DNA from: Henriciella pelagia
GTDB lineage: Bacteria; Pseudomonadota; Alphaproteobacteria; Caulobacterales; Hyphomonadaceae
Direction of reading: 5' to 3'
Assembly: GCF_002088945.1 (NCBI RefSeq)
Contig: NZ_NCSU01000007.1
Span: 620,001-684,000, forward strand
DNA length: 64,000 nucleotides
In this document: positions 15,704-17,491 of the stretch, one piece after another
Layout of the letters: the number at the start of each line of letters is the position of its first letter
Numbering within the stretch: position 1 is the first letter of the stretch
Translations under genes and position numbers: made by a program
The notes under the pieces: generated by a model
Seen by the model: the letters and a program-made list of their open reading frames with translations, nothing else
Told to the model about the DNA's origin: nothing
The model's database searches: none

Positions 15704-17491
15704 TTACGCGTCTTCCATCATCTTTTCGGCTTTCTTGATCACCTGGTCCATGTTGCCGACCATGTAGAAGGCCTGCTCTGGAAGGTGGTCATACTCGCCA
15801 GCGATGAGGCCCTTGAAGCCCTTGATCGTGTCTTCGAGCTTGACCTGCTCACCCGGCGAGCCGGTGAAGACTTCAGCCACGTCGAACGGCTGGGACAGGA
15901 AGCGCTCGACCTTACGGGCACGGGCAACGACCATCTTGTCGTCTTCGGAAAGCTCGTCCATGCCGAGAATGGCGATGATGTCCTGAAGTTCCTTGTAGCG
16001 CTGCAGGATTTCCTGCACGCCGCGGGCGACTTCATAATGCTCTTCACCAACGACCATCGGGTCGAGGATACGCGAGGAGCTGTCGAGCGGGTCCACAGCC
16101 GGGTAGATACCTTTTTCCGAAATGGCGCGGTTGAGAACCGTCGTTGCGTCGAGGTGAGCAAACGAGGTTGCCGGGGCCGGGTCGGTAAGGTCGTCTGCAG
16201 GAACGTAGACGGCCTGGATCGAGGTGATCGAACCCTTGTTGGTGGAGGTAATACGCTCCTGGAGCTGACCCATGTCGGTGGCCAGCGTCGGCTGGTAGCC
16301 CACAGCGGACGGGATACGGCCAAGAAGTGCAGACACCTCAGCGCCGGCCTGGGTGAAGCGGAAGATGTTGTCGACGAAGAACAGGACGTCCTTGCCTTCC
16401 TGGTCGCGGAAGTACTCAGCCTGGGTGAGGCCGGTCAGGGCGACGCGGGCACGGGCACCTGGAGGCTCGTTCATCTGGCCGTAGACCAGAGCCACGCGGC
16501 TGTCGCCTTCGAGGTCGATAACGTTCGACTCGATCATTTCGTAATAGAGGTCGTTGCCTTCGCGGGTGCGCTCACCCACCCCGGCGAAGACCGAGTAACC
16601 GCCGAACAGTTTCGCGATGTTGTTGATCAGTTCCTGAATGAGAACCGTCTTGCCAACGCCGGCACCGCCGAACAGGCCGATCTTGCCGCCTTTTGCGTAA
16701 GGGCAGAGCAGGTCGATAACCTTGATACCGGTCACGAGGATCTCGGCTTCGGTCGACTGGTCGACAAATTCCGGGGCCGGAGCGTGGATCGGGGCGCGCT
16801 TCTTGGTCTCAACCGGGCCGCGCTCGTCGATCGGCTCACCGATGACGTTCATGATGCGGCCGAGCGTTTCAGGACCAACAGGAACCTGGATCGGTTCACC
16901 AAGGTCGGTCACCGGGTGACCGCGAACGAGGCCTTCGGTGGAGTCCATGGCGATGGTGCGGACCGTGTTCTCACCGAGGTGCTGGGCAACCTCGAGGACG
17001 AGGCGGTTGCCGTTATTGTCGGTTTCCAGGGCGTTCAGGATGTCGGGCAGGTGGCTGTCAAACTCGACGTCGACGACGGCACCGATCACCTGTGCGATCT
17101 TGCCGGTTGCGGTCTTGCTGCTCATGCGAGGCGTCTCCTTGGGAGCGGGTGTAGATTTTGGTGTCGGGGCCGGCTTTGATTTGGCCGCCGGCTTAGGGGC
17201 AGATTCGGTTGCAGACGCAGCTGCGATGGCGGGCGCGACGTCTTTCAGCTTCACGCCGCCCTTCTTCTCGGCTTCGGCAGGCTTGCAGACGCCGCAGGCA
17301 CGCGTGTCCTTCTGCTTCAGCGAGGTGGCTTTCTTGTTGGCCGCCGCGAAGGTGTCAAAGGGGCCGTGCCACTTGTCGTCATCATTGGTCTGGTCGCCGC
17401 CGACGCCCTGGCCGTTATTGCAATAGCGGCAGTCCGCCGTATGGATGCGGGCGCGCTTGTTGCCGAAGTTTTCGTAGATCCAGAAATTCAT
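15704..17491 (-). CDS. atpD: ATP synthase F1 beta subunit with an unusual N-terminal two-CxxC domain
   Basis: Residues 123-595 are a complete catalytic beta subunit of normal length (473 aa): P-loop GGAGVGKT at 275-282, [45 protein letters not shown] and the [10 protein letters not shown] lever. In frame upstream lie 122 extra residues. These comprise a compact domain (1-71) starting [17 protein letters not shown], with CRYC at 21-24 and CGVC at 66-69, followed by an Ala/Pro/Lys-rich linker (about 72-122). The ATG at 17491 has GTAGGAG overlapping the atpG stop, 10 bases downstream of it. A second start at 17125 has its own AAGGAG nine bases upstream and would make the ordinary subunit. Either or both may be used. 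The extension resembles small stand-alone alphaproteobacterial proteins beginning MxFWxYENW; that resemblance is from memory. Confidence 0.9.
17123..17140 (-). promoter_or_regulatory. internal ribosome binding site and start for the short AtpD form
   Basis: On the minus strand AAGGAG (17135-17140) stands nine bases before an ATG (17123-17125) that begins the ordinary AtpD sequence [12 protein letters not shown]. The leader here (AAGGAGACGCCTCGC-ATG) closely resembles that of the long form (TAGGAGACGCGCG-ATG at 17491-17503), as if a small gene with its own leader had been placed in front of atpD and then lost its stop. Confidence 0.6.

Follow-up and report, generated by a model that had tools for sequence, protein, structure and literature searches.

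A Cys/His module fused in frame to the ATP synthase beta subunit of Hyphomonadaceae, with a conserved internal start that probably yields two lengths of beta

The window, i.e., the whole 64,000-nucleotide stretch of the Henriciella pelagia genome that was analysed (NCBI RefSeq assembly GCF_002088945.1, contig NZ_NCSU01000007.1, positions 620,001 to 684,000), contains the ATP synthase genes in the usual order atpH-atpA-atpG-atpD-atpC, with gene names assigned by reading the translations. A preliminary description of this DNA had reported 122 in-frame residues ahead of AtpD and a separate Shine-Dalgarno (SD) site for each of two starts. Both are confirmed: the ATG at 17491 opens a frame of 595 residues with a site overlapping the atpG stop, and the internal ATG at 17125 has a site of its own nine bases upstream (Table 1). 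Residues 129-591 of the long form match the TIGR01039 (atpD) model with 845.3 bits against a cut-off of 462.85, covering model positions 2-462 of 462, and the protein is thus an F1 beta subunit by that criterion. Elsewhere in the window, a cytochrome P450, a TetR-like regulator, a ferredoxin reductase, and a 2Fe-2S ferredoxin lie in a row at 9384-12913, as judged from the translations.

Table 1. Features of the fused atpD gene and its upstream neighbour in the window.
Feature	Position	Strand	Remarks
atpG (gamma subunit)	17502..18386	-	ORF; C-terminus IISGAEAL common to relatives; directly upstream of fused atpD
TAGGAG, SD-like site of long form	17499..17504	-	overlaps atpG stop codon (17502-17504)
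Cys/His domain, residues 1-71 (H17, C21, C24, C66, C69)	17279..17491	-	start ATG at 17491
Ala/Pro/Lys-rich linker, residues 72-122	17126..17278	-	ends in retained atpD leader (APKETPR)
AAGGAG, retained SD of original atpD start	17135..17140	-	ends nine bases before internal ATG
Short form, standard AtpD, 473 residues	15704..17125	-	internal ATG 17123-17125 (residue 123 of long form)
Long form, 595-residue frame: domain, linker and complete F1 beta	17491..15704	-	stop ends at 15704

The N-terminal domain of the window protein carries CxxC at residues 21-24 and 66-69 and His at 17 and 42, which had been put forward in the preliminary description as a candidate zinc site. Conservation is complete for H17 and the two CxxC pairs, which are kept in all 40 fused genomes of the family described below. 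H42 is kept in 39/40, but it is T or L in some standalone and otherwise-fused relatives, and is therefore no family-wide ligand candidate. Over 30 rows, standalone relatives among them, the invariant positions are M1, W4, E7, H17, C21, C24, W41, G43, A51, C66, and C69. From this pattern, H17, C21, C24, C66, and C69 would be expected to hold a metal, probably zinc, and the domain may also act in redox sensing. Median pairwise dN/dS is highest in the linker (0.30), lower in the domain (0.13), and lowest in the AtpD core (0.07), based on 352 close pairs from 39 genomes, with finite values for 284, 282, and 352 pairs, respectively; judged from codon substitution, the domain is under purifying selection. 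The AlphaFold2 model of residues 1-74 is compact (mean pLDDT 88.0, pTM 0.77), with three strands, a helix, and a further strand. The model of the full-length protein is poor (mean pLDDT 41.9), so that no placement of the domain on F1 can be derived from it.

Residues 1-122 gave nothing above any cut-off in Pfam, NCBIfam, or PHROGs. In sequence comparison with the PDB, the single protein had no match, and the profile gave only chance matches at E = 1.4. Foldseek searches with the domain model returned no significant match either (best E 3.4 in the PDB and 0.07 in a viral fold library), and many of the weak viral fold matches are GIY-YIG proteins, which is taken as a lead only. Two candidate families were considered and rejected. 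DUF6233 (PF19746) is the best Pfam match for 26/30 domain rows, the match lying at the C-terminal end with its CxxC; at 20.8 bits, aligned over 17 residues, the window protein stays below the cut-off of 27.6. For the N-terminal zinc domain of Ada, the Cys/His spacing of which we presumed to be similar, structure 1u8b ranks 39th in Foldseek (E = 8.0, TM 0.41), and no Pfam Ada model matches any of the 30 rows at E <= 1. One other match to the domain in the same genome (E = 0.225) has a stop inside and was taken as chance.

The spread of the AtpD extension, on which the preliminary description had asked for an alignment, was established by searching 105 genomes of the GTDB family Hyphomonadaceae. 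At E <= 0.01 the domain occurs in 40/105 genomes, and its frame continues into AtpD in 40/40, despite a linker of 34 to 77 residues; this count includes G003, whose contig ends just past the domain-AtpD junction. A frameshift in relatives, named beforehand as the sign of a separate gene or of a sequence error, was searched for, and the stretch that joins the domain to AtpD contained a stop or frameshift in 0/40. The fused genomes span five genera, namely, the window's own genus (25/29), Ponticaulis (g7, 7/7), g9 (3/3), g2 (2/3), and g4 (3/42), and include Ponticaulis koreensis DSM 19734, Hyphomonas johnsonii MHS-2, and several Henriciella species. A readable atpG-atpD junction that lacks the domain is present in 55 genomes of the family, i.e., 55 of the 95 resolved, and the working enzyme thus does not require the domain; the other 10 of the 105, in which the junction was unusable and the domain gave no match, do not enter the tree described below. 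The domain is a separate gene between atpG and atpD in none of the family's genomes. Outside the family, no AtpD fusion was found among 385 genomes of the class, 398 of the phylum, and 210 of the order (overlapping samples), and E. coli genomes gave no DNA match. A 684-residue frame in G081 was ruled out as an insertion, as it has an assembly gap of N in its middle. At one junction (L109, in G012), an unrelated 58-codon ORF lies between atpG and atpD, at the position that the domain takes in fused relatives.

The peptide that precedes the internal Met in fused genomes is encoded by bases that form the ordinary noncoding SD leader of atpD in unfused relatives, e.g., CCCGCTCCAAAGGAGACGACCCGC in unfused members of the same clade. 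The sequence AAGGAGACG stands before atpD in 24/55 unfused junctions. AGGAG precedes atpD in all 39 unfused genomes within the 79-row clade that holds the fused ones (25 with AAGGAG, 14 with GAGGAG) and is absent from this position in the 16 unfused genomes outside it. In the fused genomes the leader bases are translated as APKETPR just ahead of the internal Met. AAGGAG is found in 33/40 and AAGGGG in 7/40, all of the latter being Ponticaulis, with a different peptide (KGSS/KGSV). Together with the 40/40 in-frame genomes, the noncoding leader of unfused relatives supports the earlier proposal that a domain added between atpG and atpD became a translational fusion.

Codon usage in this leader is fixed. 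In the 33 AAGGAG genomes, its Lys is always AAG and its Glu always GAG. As a control, invariant columns of the AtpD core were examined in 32 of the same genomes (L044 left out), and a single codon throughout was seen in 0/22 Glu, 0/10 Lys, and 0/19 Thr columns, i.e., 0/51 in total; these codon counts pool related genomes, a kinship effect that the core-column control offsets in part. In the rest of the linker, Glu is GAA 44 times and GAG 17 times, and Lys is AAG 165 times and AAA 154 times, against GAG in 32/32 for the leader Glu (39 genomes). The Pro codon just 5' of the internal SD varies freely among CCC, CCT, and CCA. An in-frame internal ATG, with an SD conserved beyond what the peptide needs, is thus found in 40/40 fused genomes. 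Since the leader codons are fixed while the invariant core columns are not, the internal start is, on codon evidence, kept by selection, and two lengths of beta are likely to be made from the fused gene. In this respect the second internal start of the preliminary description is borne out. Its remark that the two leaders are alike holds for this genome and for a near relative; elsewhere among the fused genomes, the leader of the long form is variable and the internal one constant.

An alternative is that the gene is a fusion and nothing else, such that all beta is long and the internal leader is kept for its peptide, PKETPR. PKE is indeed identical in 33/33 fused genomes other than Ponticaulis, as this reading would predict. 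However, the codons are fixed as well, whereas none of the invariant core columns for Lys, Glu, or Thr keeps one codon; the seven Ponticaulis genomes have another peptide and yet retain the purine-rich AAGGGG, and unfused relatives carry the leader bases as noncoding sequence. An exclusively long beta is therefore considered unlikely.

Initiation signals were compared by duplex energy with a typed anti-SD sequence. Over 39 genomes, with L042 read by hand in addition, the median is -8.3 kcal/mol for the internal site and -7.3 kcal/mol for the long-form site (-7.3 kcal/mol also for the TAGGAG of the window), and in 37/39 nothing in domain plus linker matches the anti-SD more strongly than the internal site. 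The long-form site is on average barely weaker than the internal one, so that the ratio of long to short beta cannot be predicted from these values. A scan for sigma-70-type consensus promoters between the two starts found none, and no masking RNA structure was detected, as neither start folds better than shuffled sequences.

Alternatively, mostly short beta may be used, with the upstream translated part cut off by a protease, which would leave F1 without the module and a free domain to act elsewhere. The linker is of low complexity and evolves fast (dN/dS about 0.30), as would be expected of a cleavable spacer, and relatives of the domain occur as free proteins of about 71-78 residues. Nevertheless, a separate product would easily tolerate a stop codon between the two parts, and none of the 40 genomes has one; this route to short beta is improbable as well.

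To assess the history of the fusion, a quick tree was built from AtpG and AtpD combined, with 95 rows. One clade of 79 rows contains all 40 fused genomes and 39 unfused ones. The fused/unfused label needs 8 changes on this tree, at least 5 of which are forced by well-supported branches, since a single clade of fused rows is rejected (p-AU 1.9e-75; 91 rows, with L136, L044, L142, and L137 left out). Distances of the domain and of AtpG plus AtpD are correlated only moderately (Mantel r 0.54; 0/1000 permutations as high). As unfused genomes are nested among fused ones, repeated loss of a dispensable domain is probable, and one fusion followed by such losses is the simplest reading of the tree; transfer of the fused gene between lineages may be an alternative. 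The clearest case of loss, on the simplest reading of the sequences, would be G017, which is nested among fused relatives and has no domain. Its AtpD starts from a near-identical leader, CTCCTAAGGAGACGCCTCG, one base shorter, and the retained leader thus suffices as the sole start in that genome.

The domain is also found in other surroundings. A scan of the genome contigs returned 38 loci, namely, 32 AtpD fusions (L046-L077) and six others. Four of the latter (L078, L079, L080, and L083) encode small standalone proteins of 71-78 residues, and two of these standalone copies, L078 (1837-2049) and L080 (3001-3213), lie directly beside GmrSD-type restriction genes, which score above the Pfam cut-off. 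In the fifth (L081), the domain is followed by a GIY-YIG-like region with a Pfam score of 21.9 bits, just under the cut-off of 22.6, and in the sixth (L082, 3001-3996), from a Dehalococcoidia MAG, it is joined to an Amdase-like enzyme (above cut-off). The class, phylum, and order samples added further standalone copies (L084, L085, L086, and L153); the order-sample matches G954 and G978 were left out of this locus reading. In genomes of family f2 (which, from the look of its sequence, we take to be Caulobacteraceae), the domain forms the C-terminus of IS1-like transposases near position 1500 of L087, at the Pfam cut-off, and L154, below it. L172 has a C-terminal copy on a protein without a Pfam match, which was judged GIY-YIG-like by eye. 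Rhizobial plasmids (Mesorhizobium, Bradyrhizobium) carry copies at 174956-175165 of NZ_AP023245.1 (H1) and 299553-299678 of NZ_CP082165.1 (H2), both unannotated, with no gene there in the PLSDB table. In viral contigs, 26 pattern matches included no relative of the domain, and phages searched with the standalone query gave none either. The domain is a compact module that has no Pfam family of its own at threshold and is present in very different proteins, any one of which could reveal its biochemistry.

These surroundings give rise to a further alternative, i.e., that the domain keeps a nucleic-acid-related activity and tethers some F1 to DNA or RNA, or serves in phage defence. The restriction-gene neighbours of L078 and L080, the transposases L087 and L154, and the GIY-YIG-like region of L081 point in this direction. 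Against it, these are a handful of loci only, the Amdase-like partner in L082 has no link to nucleic acids, and no PADLOC model matches the domain itself (with the window domain and the standalone L078 as queries, 0 models reached E <= 0.01); such a role for the fused form is judged rather doubtful. An assembly or annotation error, in favour of which nothing was found, is contradicted by the recurrence of this arrangement in 40 genomes from five genera, including named type material, and is extremely unlikely.

The preferred reading, in which the fused atpD gives two forms of beta, an ordinary one and a long one that bears a tethered accessory module, is proposed with reasonable confidence. 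Under this reading, a small Cys/His module would have come to sit between atpG and atpD and would have been joined in frame to atpD via an Ala/Pro/Lys linker, with the old atpD leader and ATG left in place. Initiation at 17491, just after atpG, would produce the long beta, and initiation at 17125 on the old signal would produce the ordinary one; both would be expected to accumulate. As the two forms differ by 122 residues, an F1 hexamer could carry between zero and three tethered modules. The N-terminus of beta is located at the crown of F1 in known structures. A module tethered there might be an accessory docking or regulatory part, useful under some conditions and droppable, and the repeated loss argues for such a conditional, accessory role. 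The fuller proposal, that start choice sets the composition of F1 and that a metal-dependent module, found elsewhere with mobile or restriction-type genes, tunes its regulation or docking, is put forward tentatively as a possibility.

Zeta is the known F1 inhibitor of alphaproteobacteria, and the domain was considered as its replacement. PF07345 is present in 101/105 genomes, with no relation to the fusion, and zeta is thus not replaced by the domain. Two PF07345 matches each were seen in G032, G033, G034, and most Ponticaulis genomes, the second being weak in Ponticaulis and partly below the cut-off.

Compared with F1 beta as defined by TIGR01039, the window protein is a complete ordinary beta in the usual gene order, to which 122 residues with a conserved Cys/His domain are added, with the second start behind them. 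In family f2, of the same order, AtpD has N-terminal Ala/Lys/Pro-rich tails, with 23-65 residues from candidate ATG to core in 11/11 genomes read. These tails are N-terminal extensions of a composition like that of the window's linker; unlike in the fused atpD, no Cys/His domain and no in-frame retained atpD leader was seen in the 11 genomes.

Few known proteins are as conserved as F1 beta, and a gene for it is generally assumed to encode a single polypeptide. In one open-licence library of papers, no AtpD fusion of a Cys/His module with the original start kept was found, nor were proteomic or ribosome data on the two proteins, and we know of no earlier case of catalytic-subunit heterogeneity coded by start choice. 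A natural, repeatedly lost fusion with a selected original start would be the first such case known to us, and the cell could, if this is true, tune ATP synthase regulation or docking through start choice. Cultured Henriciella or Ponticaulis would allow a direct test of both the biochemistry of the domain and the dual start.

Known genes with an internal start include sctQ/hrcQ, in which one gene has two in-frame starts and the short product, SctQC, lacks the N-terminal part and joins the same machine (PMC8553256). The complete and the shortened product of a single gene thus belong to one machine, as proposed here for the fused atpD. They differ in that SctQC is reported to be a C-terminal fragment with a role of its own (PMC8553256), whereas the short product of the fused atpD would be the whole standard catalytic subunit. 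In the fused atpD, it is the long product that would carry the added module.
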